In this document: positions 35,936 through 56,281 of the stretch, one piece after another | Layout: each line of letters begins with the position of its first letter | Position numbering within the stretch: position 1 is the first letter of the stretch | NCBI RefSeq assembly: GCF_000177215.2 | Contig: NZ_CM001368.1 | Coordinates: 1,240,001-1,304,000 of the forward strand | DNA from: Solidesulfovibrio carbinoliphilus subsp. oakridgensis | Lineage (GTDB): Bacteria > Desulfobacterota > Desulfovibrionia > Desulfovibrionales > Desulfovibrionaceae | Reading direction: 5' to 3' | DNA length: 64,000 nucleotides | Translations under genes and position numbers: made by a program | Notes under the pieces: generated by a model | Told to the model about the DNA's origin: nothing | What the model saw: the letters and a program-made list of their open reading frames with translations, nothing else | Database searches by the model: none

Positions 35936-37336
35936 ATGACAGACATCAGTCAGGAATTGCACGTCATAAACGTTGGTCTTGAAGGGTTCTACACAGAACT
36001 TCAAGAACAGAACGTACCCACGGTGCAAGTGGACTGGCGACCGCCGGCCGGCGGCGATGTGGCGCTTATCGACAAGCTGGCCAGGCTGCAGACGCCGGAA
36101 GTGGAGGAGGCCAACGCCAAAACCATCTCCCGCATCAGAGACAGCCGGCCGATGTGGATCGACGTGCAGCCGGCACTGGCGGCCATACCGGGCATGGAAG
36201 GCAACGCCCTGCTGCATTCCGGACCGCCTATCGACTTTGGCGACATGTGCGACCCCCAGCAGCGCGCCGTGGAAGCCGCCGCCATCTTCGAAGGCTGGGC
36301 TGTCGACCGCGAGGGCCTTCTCGCGAAACTCCGCTCCGGCGACATCCGCCTGCGCCCCAACTACGCCTACGGCAGCGTCGGGGCCATGTGCGGCGTCATC
36401 TCGCCCTCCATGCAGGTCATCGTTACCGAGAACGCCCCCTACGGCAACCGCTCGTGGTCCACGTTCAACGAAGGCAAGGGCAACGTCATCTGGATGGGGA
36501 CCTACGACAAAGGAACCATCGAACGGCTGCGCTGGATGCGCGACGTGCTGGCCCCGAGTCTGCGCGCCGCACTACGCACCCGCAACGAAGGGCTCGACAT
36601 CTTTAAGATCATCGCCGAGGGCACGCTTATGGGCGATGAAGTCCATGCCCGCAGCGCCGCCTGCACCTTGCTGCTGTTGCGCGAGCTGACTCCCATGCTC
36701 CTCAACGCCGGCGTGAAACGCGACGTCATTACCCGCATCGTGGAATTTATCAGCCAAAACAACCACTCGTTCCTGAGCCTGACGCTCACCGCCTGCAAAA
36801 CCGCCTGCGACGCCGCCCACGGCATCCCCCATTCCACCGTGGTCACGGCAATGAGCCGCAACGGCGTCAATTTCGCTCTGCGCGTGGGCGGCATGAAGGA
36901 CGACTGGTTCATCGCCCCGACAGCCCCCATGGACGAGGCCATCTACTATTCCGGCTACGGTCCGGACGACGCCGCCGGCGACATCGGCGACAGCGCCATC
37001 GTGGAGACCGCCGGCCTTGGCGGCATGATCATCGGCGCGGCCCCGAGCATCAGCTCCTTTGTGGGCGGCTCCATGGGACACTCCCGCCAGGCCATGGCCG
37101 CCATGCGCTCCATCTGCGCCGGAGACAATCCGGCCTTTGCCCCAGGTGCGGTGGACTTCACCCCGGCCCCCTTGGGCATCGACATTCGCAAGGTGGTGCG
37201 CCTGGGCTTTACCCCCATCATCGACACAGGCGTGCTCCACAAAGCCTCGGGCGTGGGCCAGATCGGCACCGGCATCGCCCGCGCGCCCATGGCGGCCTTC
37301 ATCAAGGCGCTGCGCGCCATGCCTCTCCCGGCTTGA
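35936..37336 (+). CDS. YlbE/AllG-like (DUF1116) carbamoyltransferase component
   Basis: A 466-residue DUF1116 protein, homologue of E. coli YlbE. In E. coli, YlbE (AllG) acts with FdrA (AllF) and YlbF (AllH) as oxamate carbamoyltransferase, which splits oxalurate with phosphate into oxamate and carbamoyl phosphate during anaerobic allantoin use. Conserved stretches here include YAYGSVGAMCGVISPSM, FNEGKGNVIWMG and GDEVHARSAACT. The ATG at 35936 follows a GGGAG site; an in-frame upstream start would lie in the AT-rich leader. It is the first gene after the sigma-54 promoter, 40 bp before the carbamate kinase. Confidence 0.88.
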   Translation: MTDISQELHVINVGLEGFYTELQEQNVPTVQVDWRPPAGGDVALIDKLARLQTPEVEEANAKTISRIRDSRPMWIDVQPALAAIPGMEGNALLHSGPPIDFGDMCDPQQRAVEAAAIFEGWAVDREGLLAKLRSGDIRLRPNYAYGSVGAMCGVISPSMQVIVTENAPYGNRSWSTFNEGKGNVIWMGTYDKGTIERLRWMRDVLAPSLRAALRTRNEGLDIFKIIAEGTLMGDEVHARSAACTLLLLRELTPMLLNAGVKRDVITRIVEFISQNNHSFLSLTLTACKTACDAAHGIPHSTVVTAMSRNGVNFALRVGGMKDDWFIAPTAPMDEAIYYSGYGPDDAAGDIGDSAIVETAGLGGMIIGAAPSISSFVGGSMGHSRQAMAAMRSICAGDNPAFAPGAVDFTPAPLGIDIRKVVRLGFTPIIDTGVLHKASGVGQIGTGIARAPMAAFIKALRAMPLPA

Positions 37337-37376
37337 GTCCGACGGACCACCTTCCCACCAGCCCAGGAGCAAGAAC

Positions 37377-38321
37377 ATGACCAAACCCATTGCCGTGGTG
37401 GCCTTCGGCGGCAACGCCATCTTGGACGCCGGAGACGACGGCTCGTTCACCACCCAGCTCGAAAAGGCCAAGGCGGCCTGCCGGCAGATGCTCGCCATCC
37501 TGCACCAGGGCTATCAGCTTATTTTGGTGCACGGAAACGGTCCGCAGGTCGGCAACCTGCTCATCCAGTTCGAAAAGGCCAGCGACGTCATTCCCGTCCC
37601 CCCCCTCGACGTGGCCGTGGCCACGTCCCAGGGCCTGCTCGGCCACATGCTCGAAATCAGCATGCGCACGGTCCTGGAAGAGGACCGGATGCAGCGCGAG
37701 GTGGCGACCGTGCTGACCCAGGTGGTCGTCAGCCGCGACGACCCGGCTTTTGCCCAGCCCACCAAGCCCATCGGCCCCTTTTACAGCCGGGAGCAGGCCG
37801 AACACTACCGGCAAACCGAAGGCTGGCACGTGGTCGAGGACTCCGGACGGGGCTGGCGGCGGGTGGTCTGCTCGCCCCTGCCGCGCAAGGTGCTGGAACT
37901 CAATACCATCAAATACCTCGCCGAAAACGACACCGTGGTCATTGCCTGCGGCGGCGGCGGCATCCCGGTCAACTACCTCACCGACAGCGTGGTCGGCACC
38001 GACGGCGTCATCGACAAGGACGCCACAGCCGCCCTGCTCGCCTACAACATTGGCGCGGAACGTTTCATCATCCTCACCGGCGTGCCCCAGGTCTGCCTGG
38101 ACTACGGCAAGCCGACCGAGCGAACCGTGGACGCCATGACCGTGGCCGAGGCACGGTCATGGCTGGAGGCCGGCCAGTTTCCGTCCGGCAGCATGGGGCC
38201 CAAGATCCGAAGCGCTGTGGAATACGTGGAAAAAGGCGGCGCGGAAGCCATCATCACCTCCCAGGACAACATTGTCGCGGCCATGCAGCAATCCGGAACC
38301 TGCACCAGGATCGTCAAATAG
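37377..38321 (+). CDS. Carbamate kinase (YbcF/AllK/ArcC type)
   Basis: A 314-residue amino-acid-kinase fold enzyme that makes ATP from carbamoyl phosphate and ADP, releasing carbamate. Signatures are the N-terminal AFGGNAIL, the LVHGNGPQVGNLL loop, CGGGGIPV and the DKDATAALLA motif. The FPSGSMGPKIRSAV region near residue ~270 is also typical. AGGAGC precedes the ATG by 6 bases. Its place between YlbE-like and FdrA-like genes matches the E. coli fdrA-ylbE-ylbF-ybcF set, so a catabolic role is likely rather than arginine deiminase metabolism (no arcA or arcB here). Confidence 0.93.
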   Translation: MTKPIAVVAFGGNAILDAGDDGSFTTQLEKAKAACRQMLAILHQGYQLILVHGNGPQVGNLLIQFEKASDVIPVPPLDVAVATSQGLLGHMLEISMRTVLEEDRMQREVATVLTQVVVSRDDPAFAQPTKPIGPFYSREQAEHYRQTEGWHVVEDSGRGWRRVVCSPLPRKVLELNTIKYLAENDTVVIACGGGGIPVNYLTDSVVGTDGVIDKDATAALLAYNIGAERFIILTGVPQVCLDYGKPTERTVDAMTVAEARSWLEAGQFPSGSMGPKIRSAVEYVEKGGAEAIITSQDNIVAAMQQSGTCTRIVK

Positions 38322-38350
38322 GACGCCCAAACCACCAACGAGGCACGCCC

Positions 38351-39859
38351 ATGCTCTTGCAAGCCACCGTTCGCAAAAATCAGTACCAGGACTCGGTCCG
38401 TCTCATGCAGATTTCCCGGCAGGCCAGCCAGCTTCCCGGCGTCGGCAAAGTGCTGGCCCTGCTTGGCACGGACAGCAATAAGAAGGTGCTGGCCGATCTC
38501 GGACTCATGGACGACGTCGTTGCCGCTGCCACGGCCAACGATCTGGTCATCTGCGTGGAGGCCGAAAACGCCGAAGCCGTGGCCGCCGCCCTGGCCGACG
38601 TGGACGGAAGGCTGCGTTCCGTGGCCGCCGCCGGCCCGGCCGAAGCAAATCCGAAGTCGCTGGAGGAGGCCGTGGCACGCCTGTCGGGAGCCAACTTCGC
38701 CATGATCTCGCTGCCCGGCCAACTCGCCAAGCTCGACGTGGTCACGGCCCTGGAGCAGGGCCTTCACGTCATGCTCTTTTCCGACAACATCTCCCTGGCC
38801 GACGAAGCTGAGCTCAAGGCCCTGGCCGCGAAAAAAGGCCTGCTCCTCATGGGGCCGGACTGCGGCACGGCGATCATAAACGGCGTGGCCCTGGCCCTGG
38901 CCAACGTGGTGCGGCGTGGCGAGATTGGCCTGGCCGCCGCCTCGGGCACCGGCATCCAGGAGGTGACCTGCCTCATCGACCGTTTCGGCGGCGGCGTCTC
39001 CCACGCCATCGGCGTCGGCGGACGCGACCTCAAAAAGGAAGTCGGCGGAACCATGATGCGCCAGGCCATCCGCATCCTGGCCGCCGATCCGGCCACCAAG
39101 ACCCTGGTTGTCCTGTCCAAGCCCGGCGCTCCCGAGGTCATGGAAACCGTGCTGGACGAAGCCCGGCAAAGCGGGCTTCGCGTGGTGACCTGCCTCCTTG
39201 GCGGTGACGCGTCCGCCGCGCCCGAAGGCATGGTCTGCGTCTCCACCCTGGAAGAGGCCGCCTTCGCCGCCCTGGACCGCGACCTGCCGCCGCTGGCCAT
39301 TCCCCCGGGCCTTCGGGAACGCGCCGCCGCGCTGTCGTCTGGCCGCCAGTATCTGCGCGGCCTCTACAGCGGCGGCACACTGTGCTACGAAACCCTGTTC
39401 CTGCTCAAGGACGACCTGGACATCCAGTCCAACGTGGCGATCAAGCCCGAACTCAAGCTCGGCTATCCGGTCAAAGGCACGGGACACTGCTGCGTGGACC
39501 TCGGCGAGGACGAGTTCACCCAGGGCCGGCCCCACCCCATCATCGACCTCTCCTTGCGCCTGGAACGGCTGGCCGAGGAAATGGCCGACCCCAGCGTCAA
39601 GGTCGTTCTCCTCGACTTGGTCCTCGGCTACGGCGCCCACCGCAACCCGGCGGCCGAACTGGCCGAGGCCATCGCCGCCGCAAGCCAGGCCCGGCCCGAC
39701 GGCGGCCCCGTCGTGCTGGTCCATGTCTGCGGCACGCAGGCCGACCCCCAGGATCTCCAGGCCCAGGAAAAGCTCCTGGCCGAGGTCGGGGCCTTCCTTT
39801 TCCCCACCAACGCCCAGGCCGCCAAGGCCGCCAGGGCCATTGTCGCGGGCGAACTGTAA
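38351..39859 (+). CDS. FdrA/AllF-like protein of the carbamoyltransferase complex
   Basis: A 502-residue protein related to acyl-CoA synthetase (succinyl-CoA synthetase-like) folds and to E. coli FdrA. Seen are the N-terminal RKNQYQDSVRLM, the family stretch LLMGPDCGTAIINGVAL, the SGTGIQEVTCLIDRFGGGVSHAIGVGGRD nucleotide region (key GTGIQE and GGRD) and GLYSGGTLCYE in the second half. In E. coli, FdrA (AllF) is one of three proteins needed for oxamate carbamoyltransferase. It lies 29 bp after the carbamate kinase and before the FAD oxidase. Confidence 0.88.
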   Translation: MLLQATVRKNQYQDSVRLMQISRQASQLPGVGKVLALLGTDSNKKVLADLGLMDDVVAAATANDLVICVEAENAEAVAAALADVDGRLRSVAAAGPAEANPKSLEEAVARLSGANFAMISLPGQLAKLDVVTALEQGLHVMLFSDNISLADEAELKALAAKKGLLLMGPDCGTAIINGVALALANVVRRGEIGLAAASGTGIQEVTCLIDRFGGGVSHAIGVGGRDLKKEVGGTMMRQAIRILAADPATKTLVVLSKPGAPEVMETVLDEARQSGLRVVTCLLGGDASAAPEGMVCVSTLEEAAFAALDRDLPPLAIPPGLRERAAALSSGRQYLRGLYSGGTLCYETLFLLKDDLDIQSNVAIKPELKLGYPVKGTGHCCVDLGEDEFTQGRPHPIIDLSLRLERLAEEMADPSVKVVLLDLVLGYGAHRNPAAELAEAIAAASQARPDGGPVVLVHVCGTQADPQDLQAQEKLLAEVGAFLFPTNAQAAKAARAIVAGEL

Positions 39860-39912
39860 GCCAGCGCCGAACGGCCCGGCGACGGCGTCGCCGGGCCATG
39901 GAGACTCCCGCC

Positions 39913-41343
39913 ATGACGTATCAGGAAGCCGTCCAACAGGCCTTTGGCGAGGCCGCAACCTTCGACCCCGAAATTCTTCGCAGTTACGACCATGACCTCG
40001 GCGAAATGCCCCGCCCGCTCATGGCGCTGATTTCGCACCGCCCCCATACCGTGGTCGTGCCCCGCACGGCCGCCGATGCGGCCAAGGCCCTCGCAATCGC
40101 CGACCGCTACGACGTCCCGGTCACCCCGCGAGGCCAAGCCTCGTCGGGTTACGGCGGGGCGATACCCAGCCAGGGCGGGATGGTCCTCGACCTGTGCGGC
40201 CTAAACCGCGTCCTGGCCGTGGACCCTATCGCCGGAACCGCGGATGTGGAGCCCGGCGTGGTCTGGGAGGAACTTTCCCGCGCCTTGGCCGGACATGGCC
40301 TGGACAACCGCGTCTGTCCGACCAGCGCCCCGTCCTCCACCGTCGGCGGCTGGTTCGCCATGGGCGGTGTCGGCATCGGCAGCCTGCGCTACGGCGACAT
40401 CCGCGACAATGTCCTGGAAATCGACGTGGCCGGCCTGGATGGGACCATCCACACCCACGCCGGAACTGAAATGGAAGCCTTCCACCAGACCTGCGGCGCG
40501 CTTGGCGTCATCACCCGGCTGCGTCTGGTCTGCCGGCCGGCCGAAGCGCTTACCCCTTTGGCCGTGGGCCTGCCCGACGCCGCAAGCGCCGTCCGGTTTT
40601 TGGAATTGCTGCAACCATGGCCGGCGGCCTATTCGGCCAGCCTACTCTCGGCCGGCTACTGTGCCATGCGCGCGGCGGCCGAGGGACATGCCCCGGCCGC
40701 CCTGTCGGGCTATGTCGTCTCCCTGGCTGTCGCGGGTCCTGGGGATCACGCCGCCGAGGCCGCTCGCCTGGCCGCGCGCTGCGGCGGCGCACTGCTTGAC
40801 GTGGCCACAGGCCAGGCCGAATGGGACGGCCGGTACTATCCCATGCGCATCCGCCGCGTCGGCCCATCGGCCCTGGTCGGGGAGTTCTACGTCCCCTTGG
40901 CCGGCTTCGCCCCGGCCATGGCGGCACTCTCCAGGGCGTTGCGGCGCGACGCCCTGGGCGTTGAGGCCTTTGCCGTGCGCGGAGGCCGTCTGGCCGTGCT
41001 GGTTTATCTCCTCGACGACGCCGGTTCGCTGCTCTACCCCCTGCGCATGGCCAAGGCCATGGTCCCCCTGCGCCTGTCCCGGCGTTTCGGCGGCGCGCCC
41101 TATGCCACGGGCATGTGGTTTTCCGCCCTGGCCGAGGCCGCCTTCGGCCGGGAAAAGCTGGCCCGGGTCCGTCGGCTCAAGACCGAGCGCGACCCCCGCG
41201 AACTGCTCAACCCCGGGAATCTCGGCGGCCCCTGGCTCCCCCTGCTCCCGTGCCTGAGCCTTTCGCGACTGATTGTCTGGGCCACGGCCTGCATGGGCCC
41301 CCTGGCCGCCCTTTTCCCCTCCCCGCGCCATCGTTCCTCATAA
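39913..41343 (+). CDS. FAD-linked oxidase, GlcD-like
   Basis: A 476-residue flavoprotein of the PCMH/GlcD type. The FAD-binding domain (~residues 35-215) has PRTAADAAKALAIADRY, TPRGQASSGYGG and PTSAPSSTVGGWFAMGGVGIG. The cap domain follows, and the usual C-terminal ERDPRELLNPGNLG motif is present at about residue 430. A short hydrophobic C-terminal tail follows. Such enzymes oxidise 2-hydroxy acids. The paired Fe-S protein starts 14 bp later. Given its place in an Alf/All-type set, ureidoglycolate or a related hydroxy acid is a plausible substrate, but this is inference. ATG 39913 is preferred to 39898 for its ribosome binding site. Confidence 0.85.
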   Translation: MTYQEAVQQAFGEAATFDPEILRSYDHDLGEMPRPLMALISHRPHTVVVPRTAADAAKALAIADRYDVPVTPRGQASSGYGGAIPSQGGMVLDLCGLNRVLAVDPIAGTADVEPGVVWEELSRALAGHGLDNRVCPTSAPSSTVGGWFAMGGVGIGSLRYGDIRDNVLEIDVAGLDGTIHTHAGTEMEAFHQTCGALGVITRLRLVCRPAEALTPLAVGLPDAASAVRFLELLQPWPAAYSASLLSAGYCAMRAAAEGHAPAALSGYVVSLAVAGPGDHAAEAARLAARCGGALLDVATGQAEWDGRYYPMRIRRVGPSALVGEFYVPLAGFAPAMAALSRALRRDALGVEAFAVRGGRLAVLVYLLDDAGSLLYPLRMAKAMVPLRLSRRFGGAPYATGMWFSALAEAAFGREKLARVRRLKTERDPRELLNPGNLGGPWLPLLPCLSLSRLIVWATACMGPLAALFPSPRHRSS

Positions 41344-41357
41344 GCCCGGAGCACCTC

Positions 41358-42524
41358 ATGAGCACTCGCGAGCATGCCGGCATTGTCCGGGAACTGGACC
41401 GCATTGTAGCCACCTGCGCCCGCTGCGGCTTTTGCAAGGTCGCCTGCCCCACCTTTCCCTTTGGCGGCGGCTTTGAAACCTTCTCCCCGCGCGCCAAGGC
41501 CTATTTCCTCCGGGAGTATCTGGCCGGGCGCGAGGCGCTTTCCCCGGCTTGGGTCGACCGTTTCTACCGCTGCACCACCTGCGAACGTTGCCAGACCGTT
41601 TGCCAGACGGCCATTCCCTTGGTGGAACTCTGGGAGACCGTGCGGGCCGACATCGTGCGCCAGGGGCTTGGCCCCATGCCGGCCCACAAAAAGCTGCGCG
41701 CCTTGGCCGAGGCTCACGGCAACCCCTACGGCGAACCGGCCGCCAAGCAGTCCCAGTGGCTTTTGCCCGAGCACGCCCCCACGAACCGGGCCGAAATCCT
41801 CATCTTCGGCGGCTGCACCGCGTCCTACCGGATGCCGGCCATGCTCCAGACCGGCGTGACCATCCTCACCCGACTGGGCATCCCCTACGCCTATGCCGGC
41901 GGCGACGAACACTGCTGCGCCAGCCCCCTGCTGCGCACGGGCCAGCTCGACATCGCATCGGAGCTTATCGGCAAGAATCTCGATCTGTTCGCCCGCACCG
42001 GAGCCACGACCATCGTCACCCCCTGCGGGGGCTGCTCCAAGACGCTCAAACACGACTACCCGGTCTACGCCCGCAAGCTCGGCAAGCCTTTCATGGCCAC
42101 GGTGCGACACTTCTCTGAAATCTACGCGGAGCTGCTGGGCTGCGGCCGCTTGCAGCCGCGCGTCCCAGTCAACATGACGGTCACGTTTCACGACCCCTGC
42201 CATGTGGGCCGTTCCCAAGGGCTTTTCAACGAACCACGCGCCATCCTGGCCGCCATCCCGGGCTTGAACCTCGTCGAAATGCCGCGCAGCCGCGAAGCGT
42301 CCCGGTGTTGCGGCGCCGGTGGCGGGGTCAAGGCCAACTATCCGCAAATGGCGGCGGCCATCGCCCGGGAACGCCTGGAAGAGGCCGTGGCCACCGGCGC
42401 CGACACGTTGGCGACCATGTGTCCGTTTTGCCAGGCCAGCTTCGCCCAGGCCATCAAGGAGACCGGCGCGCCCATCGGTCTTTGCGGCCTGGAGGAACTG
42501 CTGCTGGCCTCCCTGGAGGCCTGA
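41358..42524 (+). CDS. Fe-S and CCG-domain oxidoreductase subunit, GlcF-like
   Basis: A 388-residue protein. Two [4Fe-4S] motifs lie near the N terminus (CARCGFCKVACP at ~20-31, CTTCERCQTVCQ at ~72-83). Two cysteine-rich CCG domains follow (HCCASP, PCGGCSKT; FHDPCHVGR, RCCGAGGG). This is the GlcF/HdrD-like architecture that takes electrons from a GlcD-like flavoprotein and passes them to quinone or another carrier. No membrane helices are seen, so it may be soluble or peripheral. It lies between the flavoprotein and the YlbF-like gene. Confidence 0.88.
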   Translation: MSTREHAGIVRELDRIVATCARCGFCKVACPTFPFGGGFETFSPRAKAYFLREYLAGREALSPAWVDRFYRCTTCERCQTVCQTAIPLVELWETVRADIVRQGLGPMPAHKKLRALAEAHGNPYGEPAAKQSQWLLPEHAPTNRAEILIFGGCTASYRMPAMLQTGVTILTRLGIPYAYAGGDEHCCASPLLRTGQLDIASELIGKNLDLFARTGATTIVTPCGGCSKTLKHDYPVYARKLGKPFMATVRHFSEIYAELLGCGRLQPRVPVNMTVTFHDPCHVGRSQGLFNEPRAILAAIPGLNLVEMPRSREASRCCGAGGGVKANYPQMAAAIARERLEEAVATGADTLATMCPFCQASFAQAIKETGAPIGLCGLEELLLASLEA

Positions 42525-42525: not shown

Positions 42526-43434
42526 ATGGCCGTCGGGATCGCGGGCGAGCGGGTGGTTCCGGCCCCGGGCGCAAGCCTTCGGGGCCGGGTGTGGGCCGTG
42601 TTTCAACGAAGCATCCACGTGGCTCTGGGCGATGGCTTCCTGACCTTGGGCAACCCGGACCTGCCGCCCCATCCCTACTCCATCCTCTGGGACGGCTATC
42701 CGGGCGGCTTCGTCCCAGGACAGACGGTCACGGTCACGGACGACGGCGTTTTCACGGACGACCGCAGACTCGTCGCCCTGGCCGGCCTGGCCCGCTTCCG
42801 GCCGGCCCTGGAACATCCCCGGCCGGCCGGATTTCGTTCGATCCGTCACGCCCTGGCCGCCAGCCGCCAAGCCGCCGCCGTCCTGCCCGACAAGGGGGGC
42901 TTTCATACCCTGTTCCTCCAGCGTCCGAGGCCTGCTCCCTCGGACGTCGCCTGTCGTCTGCCCGGGGCTTTCGCCGACCTGGGTGGCAGGCTTTACCTCC
43001 GGATTGCCGAAGCCTTGCGCCAGCGCCGCCTGGAAGACCTTGGGCAGGCCGCCCGTGCCATGGCCGGCCTGGGCATCGGCCTGACGCCGTCCGGAGACGA
43101 TTTTCTAGCCGGTATGCTGGCGGCGTCGCGCTTTCATGGGTTGAGCCTGGGCCGGCCGGTCTTGAGCCAGGTAACGCTGACGACACTCGCGCTCGACTGC
43201 GCGGCCCGCACCACGGCCTTTTCCGGCTTCCTCCTGCGCTGCGCCGCCGAGGGCCAGGTGGCTGGCCCGGTTGGCGACTGGCTGGAAGCGGTCCATGCCG
43301 GCGACGCCGACCGGGCCGCAATCGCCGTAGGAGCCCTGGCCTGCATCGGACACGCCAGCGGCCTGGACACCCTGATGGGCCTTATTTTGGTCATGGATAT
43401 CTGCCTGGGAGAACGCGCATGGATCGAAGCCTGA
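42526..43434 (+). CDS. YlbF/AllH-like (DUF2877) protein
   Basis: A 302-residue DUF2877 protein, homologue of E. coli YlbF (AllH), the third component needed for oxamate carbamoyltransferase. The family signature GLGIGLTPSGDDFLAG is at about residues 183-198. It starts 1 bp after the Fe-S gene stop with GGAGG upstream. It is separated from the other All-type genes by the oxidase pair, unlike in E. coli, which suggests that oxidation and carbamoyl transfer are consecutive steps of one pathway. Its stop overlaps the next gene by 16 bases. Confidence 0.88.
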   Translation: MAVGIAGERVVPAPGASLRGRVWAVFQRSIHVALGDGFLTLGNPDLPPHPYSILWDGYPGGFVPGQTVTVTDDGVFTDDRRLVALAGLARFRPALEHPRPAGFRSIRHALAASRQAAAVLPDKGGFHTLFLQRPRPAPSDVACRLPGAFADLGGRLYLRIAEALRQRRLEDLGQAARAMAGLGIGLTPSGDDFLAGMLAASRFHGLSLGRPVLSQVTLTTLALDCAARTTAFSGFLLRCAAEGQVAGPVGDWLEAVHAGDADRAAIAVGALACIGHASGLDTLMGLILVMDICLGERAWIEA

Positions 43435-44387
43435 CCCTGGCCGCCCTGGCCGACGCCCTGCGGCGTGCGGAAGTCTTCCGCAACAAGTGCCGCATCCGGC
43501 CCATGGTCGCGCTTTTCGGCGGCCAGGAACAGGCGGCGGGCATCCGCAACGGCGACGATGCCGCCGCCATCCCCGACGGCGACGGCTTCCTGCTTTTGGC
43601 CGCTGAGGGCATCGTGGACTCCCTGGTGCGCCGTAACCCCTATCTGGCCGGACGCTGCGCCGTCTTGGCCAACATCAATGATATATACGCCATGGGCGGC
43701 CGGCCCCTGGCCATGGTGGACGTGGTCGGAACCCCCGACGAGGCCACGGCCCGGGAGATCTGCCGGGGCATGCGCGACGCCGCCGCCCGCTACCGGGTTC
43801 CCGTCGTCGGCGGCCATCTCCTGCGCACGGCCTTCGACCACTCGGCCTCCATGGCCATCCTCGGAAGGGCCAAGACCTGCCTCACGAGCTTCGACGCCCG
43901 CCCCGGCGACAGCTTGGTGCTGGCGACGCGCCCAAACGGCGCCTGGCTTGGCGACCTGGGGTTTTGGAACGCCACGCTGCCCGAGGACGACGCCACCCTC
44001 ATAGCCCATCTCGAACTCTTGCCCGCCTGCGCCGAGGCCGGACTGGCCCGGGCCGGCAAGGACGTCAGCATGGCCGGCCTGGCCGGCACGGCGCTGATGC
44101 TGGCCGAATCCTCCGGCGTGGGCTGCCGCCTCGACGTCGACGCCCTGTCCCCGCCGCCCGGCGCGCCGCTCACCCCGTGGCTGCTGGCGTTTATGTCCTA
44201 CGGCTTCCTGCTGGCCGTGGCTCCGGACAAGCTCGACGCCGTCGTCGCCCTTTTCACGGCCGGCGGCGTACGGACTGTTCCCGTGGGCGAGGTCTGCCGG
44301 GAACGACAGGTCTGGCTGACCCGGGGCGAAGAGCGGGAGCTGTTGTGGGATCTGGAAACGACGCCCTTTGTCGGAGGCGCGCCGTGA
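43419..44387 (+). CDS. AIR-synthase-like protein of the Nit1 cluster type (sll0787-like)
   Basis: A 322-residue protein with the PurM/AIR synthase fold. Seen are the N-terminal glycine/aspartate ATP loop (IRNGDDAAAIPDGDGFLLLAAEGI), VLANINDIYAMGGRPLAMVDV, the PVVGGHLLRT motif and the late KDVSMAGLAGTALMLAESS. PurM-like proteins use ATP to activate an amide or similar group. This subgroup is found in Nit1-type clusters beside a radical SAM protein and a GNAT domain; both occur 10 kb downstream here. It overlaps the DUF2877 gene by 16 bases and couples to the next gene by GTGA. The reaction is unknown. Confidence 0.8.
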   Translation: MDRSLTLAALADALRRAEVFRNKCRIRPMVALFGGQEQAAGIRNGDDAAAIPDGDGFLLLAAEGIVDSLVRRNPYLAGRCAVLANINDIYAMGGRPLAMVDVVGTPDEATAREICRGMRDAAARYRVPVVGGHLLRTAFDHSASMAILGRAKTCLTSFDARPGDSLVLATRPNGAWLGDLGFWNATLPEDDATLIAHLELLPACAEAGLARAGKDVSMAGLAGTALMLAESSGVGCRLDVDALSPPPGAPLTPWLLAFMSYGFLLAVAPDKLDAVVALFTAGGVRTVPVGEVCRERQVWLTRGEERELLWDLETTPFVGGAP

Positions 44388-45157
44388 CGCGCCAGGAACC
44401 CGATTGGGGCGAAGGCAGCCGTTTCTATCTGCCAAACGAGGACGCCGGCGTGGTGCGGGCCGCCTTGCGACGGTTGCGCCGCCGGCCGAGACGCCCGGTC
44501 TTCGTCGGCGGCTCGGGCATGGCCCTTCTGGAAGGGGCCCGCACCTTGCCGCACCTGGAAAGCGCCGTCTACGTCGATGTGGCCGCCTTCCAGTTCGAAT
44601 ACTTCCGGCTGCTGCTACGCGCCGTGGCATGCAGCCAGGGCCCTGGAGAACTGCGGTCCTGGTTCGCCCGGACCGTCGTTCCTGAATTGCACCGCCATCA
44701 GTCCGGGCGGGGGCGGTCTTACGCCCCGGATCAAATCCTGGCCGCCATGCAGCATCTGTTCGGTCTCGATTTCTTTTTCGATGCGGCGGCCTTTGGCCAG
44801 GCGAGAGCCATCCTTGGCCGCGTGGTGGCCGTGCGGTCGGGCATCGGGGCTTACTTGGCCGCCGCGCCGGTCAACCACGACTTCATCTATCTGAGCAACG
44901 TGCCGGATTATCTCGTCCCGAACGATCTGGCCGCCCTTTTCGCTGCCTGCCGCCGCCACAAGGCGGCGGTCTATCTCCTGGCCACCAGCGCCTGTCCGGA
45001 CCGGGCCGTCCTGGCCAGCGCCTGGCAAACCGCCGGGTATCGCCCTCACGAAGCCTCGGCGCGCCTGGACGCCGCCAATCGCGGCCTGGGCTCCCCCTAT
45101 CTGGAGCGTCCCTGGAACCGCCCAGGAACCATTCACCTCCTGTTGCCCACGTCGTAA
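44384..45157 (+). CDS. Uncharacterised protein, possibly a SAM-binding Rossmann fold
   Basis: A 257-residue soluble protein I do not recognise with certainty. RPVFVGGSGMALLEGARTLPHLESAVYVDVAAFQFEYFRLLLRAV (key VGGSG and YVDVAAFQ) looks like the first half of a SAM-binding Rossmann fold. DFIYLSNVPDYLVP recalls DUF3419/BtaA-like 3-amino-3-carboxypropyl transferases. The rest is basic and aromatic-rich. The GTG start overlaps the previous stop (GTGA), so it should be made together with the AIR-synthase-like protein and is likely part of the same reaction sequence. The family assignment is weak. Confidence 0.6.
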   Translation: MTRQEPDWGEGSRFYLPNEDAGVVRAALRRLRRRPRRPVFVGGSGMALLEGARTLPHLESAVYVDVAAFQFEYFRLLLRAVACSQGPGELRSWFARTVVPELHRHQSGRGRSYAPDQILAAMQHLFGLDFFFDAAAFGQARAILGRVVAVRSGIGAYLAAAPVNHDFIYLSNVPDYLVPNDLAALFAACRRHKAAVYLLATSACPDRAVLASAWQTAGYRPHEASARLDAANRGLGSPYLERPWNRPGTIHLLLPTS

Positions 45158-46910: not shown

Positions 46911-47684
46911 ATGGCTTCGGCGCTCTCCATCCGGGGTCTGCAAAAGACTTATCCCGCTGTCGGCGGCAAGCCGCCGGTGACCGTCCTTGGCGGCGTGGAC
47001 CTCGACGTCCCCCCGGGGGCCATCGTGTCGCTGGTGGGGCTCAACGGCTCGGGCAAGACCACGCTGCTTCGCCTCGTGGCCGGCCTGGAAACGCCGACCG
47101 GCGGCACGGTCCGCATCGACGGACGCGAACCCGTCGCCGGCGCGGCCGGAGGCATCGGGCTGGTGAGCCAGGATCTGGCCCTGCTCCCCTGGCGCACGGT
47201 GCGGGCCAACATTGCCCTGGGCCTGGAACTCCAGGGGCTGTCGCGAGCCCGGCGCGAAGTCGTGGCCCGGGAGTACGAGGCCGCCTTCGGCCTGTCGGCC
47301 TGCGCCGAACGCTACCCGAAAGAACTTTCCGGCGGCATGCGCCAGAAGGCGGCCATCGCCCGAACCCTGGCCGCCGGCCCCGGGGTTGTCCTCATGGACG
47401 AACCCTTCAGCGCCCTGGACTGCCAGACCCGAAACCGCATGCAGGCCTTCCTTCTCGACATCTGGACGCGGCGACGCGACACCATCATGTTTGTCACCCA
47501 CCATATCGAGGAAGCGGCCTTTTTAAGCGACCGCATCGTGGTCCTGACGCCAAGGCCAAGCACGGTGGCGGCCGTCCTTGACGTCAACCTCCCCCGCCCC
47601 AGAACCCGGATCGATCCCGGGCTGACGGCCCTTCGGGCCAAGACCCTTGCGATCCTTAACCGCCTTAGCCGTCAGGAACATTGA
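46911..47684 (+). CDS. ABC transporter ATP-binding protein (NitT/TauT type)
   Basis: A 257-residue ATPase. The Walker A motif is GLNGSGKTT (~residues 45-53), the signature is [12 protein letters not shown] and Walker B is [12 protein letters not shown]. The H-loop histidine lies in FVTHHIEEA. It powers the two preceding proteins. ATG 46911 was chosen because it starts the canonical nucleotide-binding domain and follows the permease stop by 2 bp. Confidence 0.93.
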
Positions 47685-47768: not shown

Positions 47769-49403
47769 ATGGCGATACTGGGATTTGTCAACGTCCGAAA
47801 GCTGCTCCTGGAACTGGCCCAGCACCAGTCCGTGGAGGTGGTCCTCAAGATCGCCGTGGACACCCTGGCCGCCGCCTCCGGGGTGGCCCTGGTGCGGGTA
47901 TGGCTTGTCGAGCCCGGCGACGACTGCGCCCGGTGCAAGGACAGCCTCCTGTGCCCGGACAAGAGCCGCTGCCTCCACCTCATGGCCAGCGCCGGCAAAT
48001 CCCTGTCGGACGGGCAAGACTGGCGGGATATCGCCGGCTCCGCCTTCAGCCGCTTTCCCGTCGGCATCCGCAAGGTCGGCGAGATCGCCAAGGCCGGCAA
48101 GCCCATCGAAATCCTGGACATCGATCCAAACGCCCAGTGGGTGGCCGATCCCGCCTGGATCAAGCGGGAAAAGATCGTCGGCTTCGCCGGCCAGCCGCTT
48201 ATCTGCCGCGACGAAGTGCTGGGCGTGCTTTCGGTCTTCACCCGCCAGCCCCTGGAACAGGGCGTGCTCGAAATGCTGCGCATGGTGGCCGACCATTTGG
48301 CCTACGCCCTCGCCAACGCCCGGGCCTTCGAGATGGTGGACCGGCTCAAGCAGCAGATGGAGCTTGAAAACGCCTATCTGCGCGAGGAGATCAACGAAGC
48401 CCAATCGTTTAAGGGCATTATCGGCCAAAGCGAGGGCATCGAGCAGATCCGCAAGCTTATCCGCATGGTCGGCCCCACCGACGCCAACGTGCTCATCTAC
48501 GGCGAGTCCGGCACGGGCAAGGAGATGATCGCCCGGGAAATCCACAACCACAGCGGGCGTTGCGACAAGCCGATGATCAAGATCAACTGCTCGGCCATCC
48601 CGCGCGAGTTGTTCGAGAGCGAATTTTTCGGCCATGCCCGGGGAGCGTTCACCGGCGCGGTCAAAAGCCGCATCGGCTATTTCCAGGCCGCCGACGGCGG
48701 CACGCTGTTCCTCGACGAAGTGGGCGAGATTCCCATTTACCTGCAAAGCAAGCTCCTGCGCGTGCTCCAGGAAGGGGAATACCAGCGGGTCGGCGAGGAG
48801 ACCGTGCGCAAGGTCGACGTGCGCATCGTCTCGGCCACCAATCGCAACCTCCATGCCGAGATCCAGGCCGGCCGCTTCCGTGAGGACCTTTACTACCGGC
48901 TGCAGGTGTTCCCGGTGGTGGTGCCGAGCCTCAAGGACCGCAAGATGGACGTTCCGCTCCTCACCGACCACTTCATCAAGCTCAGCTGCAAGAAGATGAA
49001 CCGCCCCCTGGTGCGCCTTTCCGAGGCCCAGCGACGCCGCATGGCCGCCTACGACTGGCCCGGCAACATCCGCGAGCTGCAAAACTTCGTGGAGCGCATG
49101 GTCATCACCGGCCAGCCCGATCAGGTGTTGCTTGAACTGGACCATGGGCCGGCCGCGCCGCAGGAAGCCGCACCGGCCCGGCCCGAGGTCGTCGTACCCG
49201 AACGCATCCTGACGGAAAAGGAAATGCGGGAACTGGAAAAGGCCAACATGCAGGCGGCCCTGCGCCAGACCAACTGGCGCATCTACGGTCCCAGGGGCGC
49301 GGCCAAACTCCTTGGCGTCAATCCCACCACGCTGATTTCGCGGCTTAAAAAGCTCGGCATCTACCTGCCGCGCCTCCAGGCCGAGGACGACCCGGCCTTG
49401 TAG
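47769..49403 (+). CDS. Sigma-54-dependent transcriptional activator (GAF-AAA+-Fis)
   Basis: A 544-residue regulator. Residues ~20-190 form a GAF sensor with a four-cysteine insert ([16 protein letters not shown], ~57-72) that could hold a metal or Fe-S cluster. The AAA+ domain has a Walker A GESGTGKE (~245) and the sigma-54 contact loop GAFTGA (~292). The C terminus has a Fis-type helix-turn-helix ([20 protein letters not shown]). No receiver domain is present, so it is controlled by ligand or redox binding to GAF. It lies 84 bp after the ABC genes and most probably activates the three -24/-12 promoters of the locus. Confidence 0.92.
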
Positions 49404-52541: not shown

Positions 52542-52645
52542 GAAAGGCACGAAATCTTGTTACCGCCGCCTGCCGCGCCAGTCCCGGACGGCCGGAAAAG
52601 CCCGCCAGCGCGCCGCAACCAGTTTCGCTGCCCCACGCACAAACC

Positions 52646-52661
52646 CGGCACACCCCTTGCT
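52646..52661 (+). promoter_or_regulatory. Sigma-54 promoter of the MSMEG_0572-like operon
   Basis: CGGCACACCCCTTGCT fits GGCAC-N5-TTGC with GG and GC 10 bases apart. It lies 49 bp before the first gene of the right arm, giving a leader of about 37 bases that includes the CAAGGAG ribosome binding site. Confidence 0.72.
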
Positions 52662-52709: not shown

Positions 52710-53195
52710 ATGACCATGGTTTCCATCCCCGCCCCGTCCATCGGTGACGAAATCGTCAATCACGGTCCCAAAGTCTATGAGGACATCAAGGCCAACCCGG
52801 GCGAAAAAGCGCTCATCTGCATGCACACCATGCCCTTCGAGGGTTCCGTCGGGCTTATCAACATGCTCACCGCCACGCGGCTCGTGCGCAAAGGCTACGA
52901 TCTGACCTTCCTGCTCTATGGTCCGGGCGTGCTCATGGCTTCGGCGGCACGCGGCTTCCCCAAGGTCGGCGACGAGGGCTTTGCCGGCAACATGGCCTAC
53001 AACAAACAGCTGACCACCATCATGAACGAGGGCGGCAAGGTCGTGGCCTGCCGTTTCGCCATGGCCGCCCTGTACGGCATGCGCGAGACAGACCTCCTGC
53101 CCGGCGTTCAGGGCATCCATCCCCTGGACATCCTGGACTGCATTCTCACCCACCAACGGGCGGGCGCACTGATCCTGTCCACCTGGACCGTCTAA
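52710..53195 (+). CDS. MSMEG_0572/sll0783-like nitrogen-starvation response protein
   Basis: A 161-residue protein with a DsrE-like fold. It matches the first protein of Nit1-type clusters (sll0783 in Synechocystis, MSMEG_0572 in mycobacteria): HTMPFEGSVGLINMLTATRLVRKGY, LLYGPGVL, KVVACRFAMAALYG and the C-terminal LILSTWTV (key EGSVGL, ACRFA and TWT residues). These proteins are induced by nitrogen starvation; their reaction is not known. A CAAGGAG site precedes the ATG. It is the first gene of the right arm, directly behind a sigma-54 promoter, and is followed by an amidohydrolase instead of the usual nitrilase. Confidence 0.85.
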   Translation: MTMVSIPAPSIGDEIVNHGPKVYEDIKANPGEKALICMHTMPFEGSVGLINMLTATRLVRKGYDLTFLLYGPGVLMASAARGFPKVGDEGFAGNMAYNKQLTTIMNEGGKVVACRFAMAALYGMRETDLLPGVQGIHPLDILDCILTHQRAGALILSTWTV

Positions 53196-53244
53196 CCGAC
53201 AGCCGGCTGCCTACGGCCCGAACGCCAATCGCAAGGAGTGCTTC

Positions 53245-54114
53245 ATGGAACGCATGTTGTCTGGAGAAAAAGTCCGGCGCAAGGTCTTCGATGTGCACAA
53301 CCACATCGGTTTTATGGAAGGTTTCAAGTACTACGGCCTGCCCGAGCCGGTGAATCCCACGGTCTACTGCGACAACGACCGTGCGGCCAAAATCAAGATC
53401 ATGGACCAGCTGGGCGTGGACCGGGCCATCGTCATGTCCAACTACGGCATCCCGGATCCGTCCCAGCCGTTTGGCCTCAACGCCGTGGTGCTCGACGCCT
53501 GCGCCCACCCGGACAAGCGGATTCTCGGCGGCGTCTGGTTCTCGCCGTCGGTCAAGATGCAGGAAGCCAACGAGGCGGCCATGAAGCTGGCCGGGGAGCC
53601 GGGCATCAAGGTGCTCAAGGCCACCTGCCTGCTCGGCGGCACCTGGAACCCCGAGGAGTGGGACGAAGACACCAAGAAGATGTGGGAAGGCATCATCGAC
53701 GTGTGCGCCAGCCACGACCACGTCTTCCATTTGCACACCAGTCCCGGCGGCGGCTCCGACGTCAGCAACTGCATCAAGTTCGTCAAGGCCTACGGCAAGC
53801 GTGTCAAAGTGCATGTCGTCCACTGCGGTGGCGGCGTGTCCGGCCACATCAAGTTCATTCCGGAATTCATCAAGTTCGTGAAGGAAGGCTATAAGGTCTA
53901 TACCGACACGTCCTGGGCAGTCGGCTTCTGCAATCGCTATCTCTTCGATGAAATCGAGAAGAACGGCGTGGGCGACGACCGCGTCATGTTCAGCTCCGAC
54001 GAGCCCTGGAGCGACTTTTGGAGCGAATACTACAAGTTCGAGGGGCTTGGTATCTCCGAGGAGCTCAAAAACAAGCTCTTCTGGGAAAACGCCGAGAAAC
54101 TCTACGGCGTTTAG
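53245..54114 (+). CDS. Metal-dependent amidohydrolase (amidohydrolase-2 family)
   Basis: A 289-residue TIM-barrel hydrolase. Metal-site residues are visible in order: HxH in FDVHNHIG (~residues 17-20), HLHTSPGG, HVVHCGGG and the catalytic aspartate in FSSDEPW. The family includes decarboxylases as well as amide, lactone and nitrile-derived hydrolases, so C-N cleavage is likely but not certain. CAAGGAG precedes the ATG. It takes the position that nitrilase has in other Nit1-type clusters, which suggests it handles a related C-N bond. A perfect 12-bp hairpin follows before the radical SAM gene. Confidence 0.85.
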   Translation: MERMLSGEKVRRKVFDVHNHIGFMEGFKYYGLPEPVNPTVYCDNDRAAKIKIMDQLGVDRAIVMSNYGIPDPSQPFGLNAVVLDACAHPDKRILGGVWFSPSVKMQEANEAAMKLAGEPGIKVLKATCLLGGTWNPEEWDEDTKKMWEGIIDVCASHDHVFHLHTSPGGGSDVSNCIKFVKAYGKRVKVHVVHCGGGVSGHIKFIPEFIKFVKEGYKVYTDTSWAVGFCNRYLFDEIEKNGVGDDRVMFSSDEPWSDFWSEYYKFEGLGISEELKNKLFWENAEKLYGV

Positions 54115-54203
54115 CCCTTCTCTGAAACACAGGTCGCTCAAGCAAGCCCGCGTGTCCCGGCAGGCGACGCACGGGCAAACCTTGGGCCGGGCCATGTGCC
54201 AAC

Positions 54204-54234
54204 GGACCGGACCGCGCTCCGAGCGGTCCGGTCC
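54204..54234 (+). repeat. Perfect 12-bp hairpin between amidohydrolase and radical SAM genes
   Basis: GGACCGGACCGC and GCGGTCCGGTCC pair perfectly around a 7-base loop. No T tract follows, so complete termination is unlikely. It probably protects the upstream message or reduces expression of the downstream gene. Confidence 0.75.
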
Positions 54235-54260
54235 ACAACTTCTTGGACGGACGCCACGCC

Positions 54261-55832
54261 ATGAGCATGACCCTTGCCGACTATGTCGCCCTGCAAAGTT
54301 TCGGAGCCAGAATCATTGATCATGAGATCGTTCGGCGGGGCGGGGCTGGGCCGGCGGACGCCGGGTCCTACGTCATTGACGGCCACCCCGTGATGATCCC
54401 GGCCCTGAGCCCATCGGCGCGCAGTTCGGATTACGCGTTTGTCCAGGACGGCGACCGCCTGCGGCTGGAGCGCGACGGCCGTCCGCTGTGCCATGCGGCC
54501 GCCATGCCCAGGCCCCGTTTTTATGACGGCCATACCGCCGACGGCGTCCCCTATGACAAGATCGCCCGGCTCCACGGCCTGGACTGCCTGGCCTCCACCG
54601 TCATCCAGGAGTGCGTACGCTTTAGCAGCCGACGGACCCGCTGCCGCTTCTGCGCCATCGGCGCGTCTCTTGCCCGGGGTTCGACCATCCACACCAAAAC
54701 ACCCGAGCAGCTTGCCGAGGTGGCTTCGGCCGCCCGGGATCTCGACGGCGTGCGCCATGTGACCCTGACCGCCGGCACCACCGTCTGTCCCGACGACGGA
54801 GCGCGCTATCTCGGCCGCTGCGCCAAGGCCATCGCCGAGGCCACGGGGCTGCCGGTGGAAATCCAGTTCGAGCCGCTTCGCGACCAGGCCCTCTACGCCC
54901 GGCTGCGGGACATGGGCGTCACCGACGTCGGCATCCATGTGGAGAGCTTTGATCCGGCCGTGCGCCGCCGCATGACCCCGGGCAAGGCCGAAGTGGACCT
55001 GGAAACGTATTTTGAAGCCTTTGCCGCCGCTGTTGCCGTCTTTGGCCGCAACAAAGTCAGCACCTACGTGATTCTGGGCCTGGGCGAAAATCTGGAGGCC
55101 ACCCTGGACGGCTGCCGACGCGCGGCGGCCCTTGGCGTCTATCCCGTGGTGGTGCCGCTTCGCCCCTTACTCGATTCCTGCCTGGCCGAGGCCCGGCCGG
55201 TGGACCCGGACTATCTGGGCGGCATGTACCAGGCTGTTGGCAAGATGCTGACAGACCAGGGACTGTCTGCCGAGCGCAGCTCGGCCGGTTGCGTGCGTTG
55301 TCGGGCCTGCTCCCTGCTGCAATTCACCGAAACGGCGCCGTCCCGGGGCATCCGCGCCCCGGCGGCCGTGGCCGATGCCAACGCCGTCAGCCTTCGCGTG
55401 GCCGAGACCCCGGAGGACATCGAGGAATATTGGCGTCTGCGCCACGAGGTCTTCGTGTCCGAACAGGGCATCTTCCCCGTCACCGACCGCGACGCCCATG
55501 ACGACCAGGCCATTCCCCTCATTGCCGAGGTAGCCGGCCGTCTGGCCGGGGTGGTGCGTTGTTATCGCCATCGGGGCGGGGTGTGGTACGGCGGCCGGCT
55601 GGCCGTGCGCCCGGAATACCGCAACGGCGTCAACATCGGCGCGCTTCTCGTCCGCAAGGCCGTGGAGCTCGTGCGCGCCCGGCCGGACGTCAAGCGTTTC
55701 CTGGCAACTGTGCAGTTCCAAAACGTGCGTTTCTTCCAGCGCCTCGGCTGGCTGCGCCTGGGCAAACCATTTTTGCTGCAAGACAGGAAGCATCAACTCA
55801 TGGAAAAGAAACTTCATGAGGAGGCGTTGTGA
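54261..55832 (+). CDS. Radical SAM protein fused to a GNAT domain (MSMEG_0568-like + sll0786-like)
   Basis: A 523-residue fusion. Residues ~100-365 are a radical SAM domain of the MSMEG_0568/sll0785 type. Its cysteines are spaced CX8CX2C (ECVRFSSRRTRCRFCAIG) instead of the classic CX3CX2C, and a second motif CVRCRACS (~residue 352) could bind an auxiliary cluster. Residues ~375-515 are a GNAT acetyltransferase domain (VRCYRHRGGVWYGGRLAVRPEYRNG; key GGRLAV and R residues). In cyanobacteria these are separate genes, and in mycobacteria GNAT is fused to the AIR-synthase-like part instead. The chemistry is unknown. The stop overlaps the next gene (GTGA). Confidence 0.85.
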   Translation: MSMTLADYVALQSFGARIIDHEIVRRGGAGPADAGSYVIDGHPVMIPALSPSARSSDYAFVQDGDRLRLERDGRPLCHAAAMPRPRFYDGHTADGVPYDKIARLHGLDCLASTVIQECVRFSSRRTRCRFCAIGASLARGSTIHTKTPEQLAEVASAARDLDGVRHVTLTAGTTVCPDDGARYLGRCAKAIAEATGLPVEIQFEPLRDQALYARLRDMGVTDVGIHVESFDPAVRRRMTPGKAEVDLETYFEAFAAAVAVFGRNKVSTYVILGLGENLEATLDGCRRAAALGVYPVVVPLRPLLDSCLAEARPVDPDYLGGMYQAVGKMLTDQGLSAERSSAGCVRCRACSLLQFTETAPSRGIRAPAAVADANAVSLRVAETPEDIEEYWRLRHEVFVSEQGIFPVTDRDAHDDQAIPLIAEVAGRLAGVVRCYRHRGGVWYGGRLAVRPEYRNGVNIGALLVRKAVELVRARPDVKRFLATVQFQNVRFFQRLGWLRLGKPFLLQDRKHQLMEKKLHEEAL

Positions 55833-56281
55833 TCGTCACCGCAACCACGCTTGGCCAAACCGCCTTCGCCATGGCCTCGGAGCGACACAGCCTGATTTCC
55901 GACCAATCGCCGGAATACGGCGGCGAAGGCCTTGGCCCCATGCCGAGCGAACTGCTGTTGTGGGCCGTGGCCGCCTGCTTCGGCCAAGCCGTACGCTATG
56001 TCGCGGCCCGGCGGCGGCAGCCGATGGAGGCTCTTGCAATCACGGTCAGCGCCGATAAAGATGCCGCCGCCTTCCACTTTGGCGAAATCACCATCACCGT
56101 GCGTGCCGCCCTCCTCCGGGGACGGCTGGAGGCGATCGTCGAGCAGGCCAGGCGTTACTGCTTCGTCACGGCCAGCCTGTCCGTACCGGTTCGGCTGGAA
56201 GTGCAATCGATTGCTCTCCCTTCTCACATAGAAAGCGCAACCAGGGGCGCATCGCCTGACGGTTTCAATGAAATTTCCTAG
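55829..56281 (+). CDS. OsmC-like protein
   Basis: A 150-residue protein with the OsmC/YhfA pattern (SDQSPEYGGEGLGPMPSELLLWAVAACFGQAVRYVA; key PSELLLWAVAAC). The conserved cysteine that acts in peroxide reduction is in AACFG, and a second cysteine in RRYCFVTASL completes the pair. OsmC proteins detoxify organic hydroperoxides, and some are thiol hydrolases. The GTG start overlaps the radical SAM stop and has GAGGAGG upstream. It closes the right arm of the locus. Confidence 0.85.
   Translation: MIVTATTLGQTAFAMASERHSLISDQSPEYGGEGLGPMPSELLLWAVAACFGQAVRYVAARRRQPMEALAITVSADKDAAAFHFGEITITVRAALLRGRLEAIVEQARRYCFVTASLSVPVRLEVQSIALPSHIESATRGASPDGFNEIS

Follow-up and report, generated by a model that had tools for sequence, protein, structure and literature searches.

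Do genes that resemble two separately described systems, standing side by side in one region of a chromosome, belong to one system or to two? The question is raised by the locus at positions 35936 to 56281 of a 64,000-nucleotide stretch of the genome of Solidesulfovibrio carbinoliphilus subsp. oakridgensis (contig NZ_CM001368.1, positions 1,240,001 to 1,304,000), referred to here as the window. An earlier inspection of the DNA letters and open reading frames (the sequence-only reading) had described homologues of the E. coli AllFGHK proteins standing there with Nit1-cluster genes, a GlcD/GlcF-like oxidase pair, an amidohydrolase, an ABC importer and a sigma-54 activator. Each of these genes lies where it had been placed, and the family matches agree. 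The further proposal of that reading, a single system made up of both sets, has strong support: linkage across lineages, a separate AllG clade and sigma-54-type sites point to a carbamoyltransferase arm and a Nit arm that make up one conserved gene system in distant bacteria. The Nit1C gene cluster has been known since 2005 (PMC1199592) and some of its members are still without a known function (PMC11049912). The function of AllFGH was assigned in 2024, the reaction of the E. coli oxamate carbamoyltransferase (OXTCase) being oxalurate + phosphate to oxamate + carbamoyl phosphate (PMC11326118). Statements attributed to papers cited by PMC number refer to the accessible passages of those papers.

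The locus consists of two runs of genes on the forward strand. The first (35936-49403) comprises allG, a carbamate kinase gene, allF, GlcD-like and GlcF-like genes, allH, an AIR-synthase-like gene, a gene for a 257-residue protein and the genes of the ABC importer and the sigma-54 activator, neighbouring genes being -16 to +84 bp apart. The second (52710-56281) comprises nitB, the amidohydrolase gene, a radical SAM-GNAT fusion and osmC, with gaps of -4 to +146 bp. The part from the GlcF-like gene through the ABC ATPase gene is almost gapless (gaps of -16 to +12 bp), so that the AIR-synthase-like gene, which is of Nit1C type (43419..44387; sll0787 family, Nit1C ORF5 or NitF; TIGR04049 343 bits, cut-off 321) and overlaps allH by 16 bp, lies inside the operon of the carbamoyltransferase arm.

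Linkage of the arms has been followed with AllG (35936..37336; DUF1116/YlbE, PF06545 247 bits) and NitB (52710..53195; MSMEG_0572/sll0783, Nit1C ORF1, TIGR04044 212 bits, cut-off 110). Among 199 Desulfovibrionaceae genomes, NitB is found over cut-off in 8, AllG in 13 and both in 7 (Fisher 6e-9; 8e-8 without the window genome), and all seven genomes with both carry them on one contig with starts 3.9-17.6 kb apart. The eighth NitB genome (G387) has the Nit arm only, on a 6.7-kb contig, and no AllG in the genome; in the remaining six AllG genomes the identity of AllG is 33-45%, and Nit genes were not seen nearby. In G427 and G322 allG is preceded, within 1.2 kb, by the Nit arm, and G385 has no lrgA, lrgB or fabH match between the arms. 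Since order and spacing differ in these genomes, the gene order moves and the association stays.

A wider sample was obtained with the amidohydrolase (53245..54114; Amidohydro_2, PF04909 77 bits), which has a mean column identity of 90% in eight sequences and was sought in genome_contigs (84,980 species). The search gave 40 loci, and in 35 the identity is 49-97%. Both arms are represented, by one gene or more each, within the stretch retrieved in 28 of the 35, including one (L145) with weak and partial matches to the carbamoyltransferase genes; three others show the Nit arm only, namely two 6.7-kb contigs and the contig of G453, whose allG sits further out. According to their record titles the 28 loci come from Desulfovibrionaceae, other Desulfobacterota/Deltaproteobacteria, Anaeromyxobacter, Candidatus Anammoxibacter, Acidimicrobiia and other Actinobacteria, Acidobacteria, Dormiibacterota and Dadabacteria, which by these labels amounts to seven phyla. 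Many of the records are metagenome bins whose labels may be wrong, and the 'Acidobacteria' locus L150 is placed near the Acidimicrobiia locus L148 in the AllG tree. Isolated strains are represented in this set by Asanoa hainanensis and two Pseudonocardia (L160, L165). The amidohydrolase search of plasmids gave no match; two complete plasmids of Methylocystis iwaonis, which carry genes of both arms, extend the set to Pseudomonadota.

The 296 Actinomycetota genomes analysed include 15 with NitB, 36 with AllG and 12 with both, eight of the latter having both on one contig within 11 kb (Fisher 6e-10; 3e-8 without two seed genomes). Eleven of the 15 actinomycetotal NitB proteins are of the window subtype (54-61% identity to that of the window); eight of these are linked to AllG, two are on split contigs in which the AllG piece also bears AllF, the kinase and OsmC, and one is that of genome G614. 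The four other NitB proteins (41-43%) belong to classic-type or short clusters and are unlinked, G590 and G611 having AllG elsewhere in the genome. The sequence-only reading had named linkage within 25 kb across lineages as its check, and this is observed, in several gene orders, in Desulfovibrionaceae, in Actinomycetota, in loci labelled as Anaeromyxobacter, Anammoxibacter, Acidobacteria, Dormiibacterota and Dadabacteria and in the two Methylocystis plasmids. The case that it had set against itself, adjacency in a single genome with separate regulation, is contradicted by the recurring linkage and by the sigma-54-type sites before both arms.

These counts bear on the explanation that the arms are neighbours by chance, or parts of a hitch-hiking island, and function independently. 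It can draw on the solitary Nit arm of the short G387 contig, on the six Desulfovibrionaceae with AllG and without NitB over cut-off, and on the 3.3 kb of unrelated genes that separate the arms in the window. Those six genomes, however, carry ordinary AllG that falls outside the hybrid clade, and the linkage survives rearrangement in two samples, which leaves this explanation close to refuted and very improbable. Chance adjacency as such is rejected as unlikely on the linkage in the Desulfovibrionaceae and the Actinomycetota.

Gene contents were compared in a table of 40 rows of hybrid loci. The table leaves out the duplicates L132, L133, L135, L140, L144 and L171, as well as L131 (G387) and L139, both short contigs on which the Nit arm alone is seen, and L156, L157, L161, L164 and G614. 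The row of G487 is blank, its pieces L226 and L227 lying outside that set and its genes being known separately, and the stretch of G532 starts inside the radical SAM gene, so that the presence of the amidohydrolase there cannot be judged.

AllG of 33 hybrid loci stands on one side of a branch with a Shimodaira-Hasegawa-like approximate likelihood ratio (SH-aLRT) support of 99, as against 20 ordinary AllG proteins (Desulfobacterota 8, Actinomycetota 12), in a tree made by a quick method without bootstrap. A recent move of an ordinary AllFGHK set to a place beside Nit genes is ruled out by this separate clade. Distances in the one arm (AllG, AllF, kinase) correlate with those in the other (radical SAM, NitB, AIR) with Spearman coefficients of 0.43-0.81, and for each of the nine pairs 0 of 500 permutations were as high, a correlation that partly reflects shared host ancestry. 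The radical SAM tree (68 rows) is of a different form: the 36 hybrid rows need four changes, and 33 of them make one group with all 7 classic Nit1C rows (SH-aLRT 99). The classic rows fall inside the hybrid group if the Desulfobacterota set is taken as the outgroup; the drawn root is the midpoint. The radical SAM protein of Methylocystis groups with that of Agrobacterium (91), yet Methylocystis AllG belongs to the hybrid clade. The AIR and NitB trees do not have a single hybrid clade either (4 and 2 changes).

Candidate sigma-54 sites of the -24/-12 type have been identified before both arms. Before nitB such a site scores 22-25 of 27 and starts at -56 to -73 in 8/8 genomes, that of the window (52645..52661, forward strand, CCGGCACACCCCTTGCT) scoring 24. 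Before allG a site scoring 23-25 is present in 5/7 genomes, including the window (35754..35770, forward strand, ATGGCATGCATCTTGCC; score 23 of 27); the exceptions, G427 (best 16) and G322 (best 21), are the genomes with the Nit arm upstream of allG. A score of 23 is reached by 2.2% of random 300-base stretches taken from these loci and a score of 22 by 5.9%, and the best scores are 18-20 before the activator gene and 19-22 before the importer. The predicted sites before both arms would fit a single co-regulated system. Their proposed partner is the activator of the locus itself (47769..49403), of GAF-AAA+-Fis architecture (PF00158 239 bits, PF01590, PF02954), which from residue 137 on matches the regulator beside the Nit1C cluster of Acinetobacter with 49% identity, the sensor part being unmatched. 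A sigma-54 regulator, NitA, is likewise part of classic Nit1C (PMC11049912).

The Nit arm is not a complete Nit1C cluster. Nit1C is defined by seven genes with a nitrilase among them (Podar 2005, PMC1199592). The best match to the Nit1 nitrilase (TIGR04048) in the whole window genome reaches 49.5 bits against a cut-off of 502.6, and the same model is over cut-off in 1/14 control genomes; a nitrilase hidden elsewhere in the window genome is ruled out by this value. The nitrilase is found in 0/35 of the amidohydrolase stretches. The MSMEG_0569 flavoprotein (ORF7) and MSMEG_0570 (ORF6, about 100 residues) have no match at E 1e-3 among the 20 scanned proteins of 35936-56281. Since the definition includes the nitrilase, the locus is to be called Nit1C-like rather than a Nit1C cluster. 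The sequence-only reading did not remark that the nitrilase is missing or that the amidohydrolase, which it named, stands in the cluster instead, between nitB and the radical SAM gene, which is the nitrilase position in classic Nit1C.

Compared with the Nit1C of the literature (PMC1199592; nitBCDEFGH of Pseudomonas, PMC11049912), the locus shares NitB, the AIR-synthase-like protein, radical SAM (NitD) and GNAT (NitE) over their cut-offs, and a sigma-54 activator like NitA; the radical SAM and GNAT parts are here fused in one protein (54261..55832; TIGR04043 405 bits, cut-off 304; TIGR04045 132 bits, cut-off 68). It differs in the lack of the nitrilase, MSMEG_0570 and MSMEG_0569, in the possession of the amidohydrolase, OsmC and AllFGHK, and in the other sensor part of the activator. 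With the E. coli AllFGHK (PMC11326118) it has in common three subunit families and a kinase in one operon-like run: AllG, a short form of AllF (38351..39859; FdrA, PRK06091 465 bits, cut-off 433), AllH (42526..43434; DUF2877/YlbF, PF11392 78 bits, cut-off 25) and the carbamate kinase (37377..38321; AllK/ArcC, TIGR00746 366.4 bits, cut-off 358.25). It differs from the E. coli set in having an AllG clade of its own, an AllF C-terminal segment in front of AllG, Nit1C neighbours and no allantoin genes in the locus.

The segment at the N-terminus of AllG is an observation in itself. AllG residues 3-52 (window 35942-36091) correspond to the 50 positions with which the longer AllF/FdrA model ends, residues 6-52 aligning to FdrA 428-474. 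This is a segment that has changed subunit.

What might such a system do? It is probably a route, not recognised before, by which nitrogen is obtained from a small carbon-nitrogen compound. The more specific reading, in which a relative of Nit1C without the nitrilase is combined with an AllFGH clade of its own to act as one conserved catabolic system by the steps given below, is held by us with about even confidence. Its basis is that nitrilase, nitrile hydratase and amidohydrolase could fill one step in turn, the opening of a C-N group, and that AllFGH fits a transfer of carbamoyl to phosphate; HypE, to which the AIR protein is distantly related, combines carbamoyl and cyano chemistry on a thiol. 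From this gene content we infer a substrate, a carrier and a flux. The sigma-54 activator would bind the sites seen before the two arms and turn on both. The ABC importer of the window organism, made up of an NMT1/SsuA-like binding protein (45170..46156; PF13379 156 bits; TIGR01728 130 bits, below the cut-off of 163.5), a TauC/NtrB-like permease (46153..46908; PF00528; best NCBIfam match TauC, 174 bits, below cut-off) and an ATPase (46911..47684; PF00005), may take up the small compound. NitB, radical SAM, GNAT and the AIR-synthase-like protein would then make or handle an intermediate, namely a nitrile or cyanide C-N unit on a carrier, perhaps a thiol. This unit would be hydrolysed or hydrated to carbamoyl, here by the amidohydrolase and in some relatives by the nitrile hydratase or nitrilase whose genes are seen there. 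AllF-AllG-AllH would transfer the carbamoyl group to phosphate, as shown with oxalurate for the E. coli enzyme, and the carbamate kinase, by its family assignment, would convert carbamoyl phosphate to adenosine triphosphate (ATP), ammonia and CO2. The GlcD-like subunit, predicted to bind flavin adenine dinucleotide (39913..41343; PF01565 118 bits; TIGR00387 91 bits, below the cut-off of 568), and the GlcF/TfrB/HdrD-like CCG iron-sulfur subunit (41358..42524; PF02754, PF13183; every NCBIfam match below cut-off) may oxidise a hydroxy-acid or thiol intermediate and pass electrons to the respiratory chain.

The relatives provide some clues to the chemistry. Three actinobacterial loci include genes for the alpha and beta subunits of nitrile hydratase, and in two of these loci an amidohydrolase is not visible. 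The two Methylocystis plasmids encode NitB, AllG, AllF, OsmC, radical SAM, GNAT and AIR proteins, and in addition a Nit6803 nitrilase beside the radical SAM gene. The amidohydrolase keeps H18, H20, H164, H193 and D252 in at least 97% of 42 sequences, residues which we take to be its metal ligands (HxH, two His, Asp); its structure model is of low confidence, with a predicted local distance difference test (pLDDT) value of 63. C114 of NitB is kept in 45 sequences, classic ones included, and C50 and C111 of the OsmC-like protein (55829..56281; PF02566 61 bits), both present in the window, are kept in at least 90% of 27. These residues and the kept cysteines of the radical SAM protein presumably have catalytic roles.

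The radical SAM part of the fusion (window 54261-55340) has the arrangement C118-x9-C128-x2-C131, and the motif C-x9-C-x2-C is present in at least 97% of 67 sequences of all types. The usual radical SAM motif is C-x3-C-x2-C.

Several observations weigh against the proposed catabolic system. Nitrile hydratase occurs in 3/40 rows and the nitrilase in 1/40, so the nitrile part of the reading rests on few loci, four rows of 40, and one of them (L160) has amidohydrolase and nitrile hydratase together. Oxalurate is the one compound on which AllFGH is known to act. AllH is without a match in G427, G485 and the Methylocystis plasmid (3/11 searched, Methylocystis by its plasmid alone), and the Methylocystis cluster shows no carbamate kinase. 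In the hybrid rows, GlcD/GlcF is limited to Desulfovibrionaceae and Anammoxibacter, and the ABC importer and the 257-residue protein to Desulfovibrionaceae. The candidate allG sites lie at varying distances, from -120 to -285. Four of the 35 amidohydrolase loci (L156, L157, L161, L164) have neither arm, and G614 carries the window-subtype NitB on a contig of 3.7 kb, its genome being without an AllG match. G703, which has a classic Nit1C, encodes a 41% relative of the amidohydrolase beside NitB together with a weak nitrilase-like match (26%) and no AllG.

Another explanation is the salvage of ureides. Here the importer would take up a ureide, GlcD/GlcF would make oxalurate from ureidoglycolate in the place of AllD, AllFGH and the kinase would act as in E. 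coli, and the Nit arm would free nitrogen elsewhere in the compound. AllFGH is after all the known oxalurate enzyme (PMC11326118), GlcD/GlcF lies between AllF and AllH in the window, and in nitrifiers allFGHK is kept next to biuret genes (PMC12625717). Matches of amidohydrolase type that stay under the cut-off for allantoinase are present in 13/13 carriers (218 bits in the window genome, cut-off 358), and the uptake of a ready-made ureide would be missed by the allantoinase test. However, allantoinase over cut-off is found in 0/7 Desulfovibrionaceae carriers and in 2/13 carriers overall, GlcD/GlcF is present in 9/40 hybrid rows (G487 being the tenth case), and the nitrile hydratase, nitrilase and coenzyme M genes are left unexplained. 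We consider ureide salvage possible and on balance unlikely. The nitrifier clusters resemble the window locus in that AllFGHK is part of a proposed nitrogen-salvage cluster, and differ in having BiuH and GatA-like hydrolases and not amidohydrolase 2, OsmC or radical SAM (PMC12625717). A NIT1 nitrilase is mentioned in some of these nitrifiers, with no tie to allFGHK stated in the accessible passages (PMC12625717).

A biosynthetic role has also to be weighed, in which a cofactor or small molecule would be the product of the Nit core, and AllFGH and the kinase would work in reverse to give carbamoyl groups from carbamoyl phosphate. An XcbD-like gene of coenzyme M synthesis is found in 12 of the 40 rows and an MSMEG_0565 glycosyltransferase in 18, OXTCase is reversible (PMC11326118), and SelD, PurM and HypE are among the relatives of the AIR protein with a solved structure. 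Against this, the carbamate kinase belongs to the ArcC family, and both nitrile hydratase and nitrilase serve degradation. The glycosyltransferase is also found in classic Nit1C clusters that have the nitrilase, and the importer and sigma-54 control would suit nutrient use better. This role is regarded as rather improbable.

Coenzyme M genes are nevertheless a recurrent feature of the relatives, and ComA is present in 8 of the 40 rows. Relatives of ComA and of XcbA, C, D and E, the five families of bacterial coenzyme M synthesis in NCBIfam, are seen inside clusters L148, L150, L152, L153, L158, L203, L204 and L221; several actinobacterial-type relatives and Methylocystis have coenzyme M synthesis genes as part of their clusters. 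The window genome is without ComA, and the ComA, XcbC, XcbD and XcbE relatives of L150 score under their cut-offs, only XcbA (L148) being above. ComA occurs in 2/10 carriers searched (G427, G489), on another contig than the locus, and the 19 kb around it lack an Xcb match. Synthesis of coenzyme M by the window organism is ruled out by the lack of ComA in its genome. The clusters suggest a possible new use of bacterial coenzyme M, one that did not appear in the literature searches.

A bolder form of the catabolic reading can be put forward tentatively, and we give it little weight. It is an undescribed cyanide or nitrile route in which a C-N unit loaded on a thiol carrier would be hydrated to a thio-carbamoyl group, phosphorolysed by a specialised AllFGH and turned into ATP, ammonia and CO2. 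The carrier would be coenzyme M in the relatives that make it and, in the sulfate reducer, a different thiol or one taken up from outside. On this view classic Nit1C would be a simpler descendant in which a nitrilase replaced the energy-saving ending; its radical SAM proteins group with most hybrid ones and fall inside them under the Desulfobacterota outgroup.

A search of the literature (without preprints and most subscription papers) found no description of Nit1C joined to carbamoyltransferase, oxalurate, AllFGH or coenzyme M. The joint occurrence, which is rearranging and yet lasting, taken together with the nitrile hydratase, nitrilase and coenzyme M genes of the relatives, gives Nit1C and AllFGH a common chemical frame, from C-N unit to carbamoyl to ATP. 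It also names genes and organisms for a direct test.

Apart from the two arms, the locus has a few features that should be recorded. The 257-residue protein (44384..45157, forward strand) has no Pfam or NCBIfam match and is found in 10/40 hybrid rows; its structure model (pLDDT 89) has a fold like that of SAM-dependent transferases, the nearest PDB folds being SAM methyltransferases with a template modelling score of about 0.5. Between the arms, lrgB, lrgA, an open reading frame of 92 codons and fabH lie on the other strand (49542-52249). This stretch is variable in the seven relatives, with fabH in 4, lrgA and lrgB in 2, and none of these in G385, G427 and G322. The window genome has 4.22 Mb in three contigs, and open reading frames recognised by eye as dsrA and dsrB lie after the locus.

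Two recurrent cluster proteins have no Pfam or NCBIfam match, one of about 90 residues (L150 4241-4486; 19/40 rows) and one of about 210 residues (L151 4626-5285; 17/40 rows). The radical SAM family is also represented by Desulfobacterota loci L101-L125 (25 of 27 retrieved; among them L103, L104, L110, L116 and L120), in which NitB, amidohydrolase and AllG are found in 0/25. A GlcF relative is present in 18/25 of them and all three parts of an NMT1-type ABC importer in 13/25, several of the loci reaching contig edges; some have an FMN-reductase-like open reading frame recognised by eye. Given the absence of the three markers and the frequent GlcF and importer parts, these loci look like a third setting of the radical SAM-GNAT-AIR core. 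Genes of cytochrome bd oxidase adjoin both a hybrid cluster (Methylocystis, L171 7102-9537) and a classic Nit1C cluster (Komagataeibacter, L173 18867-20447); oxidases of the bd type are often cyanide-tolerant.

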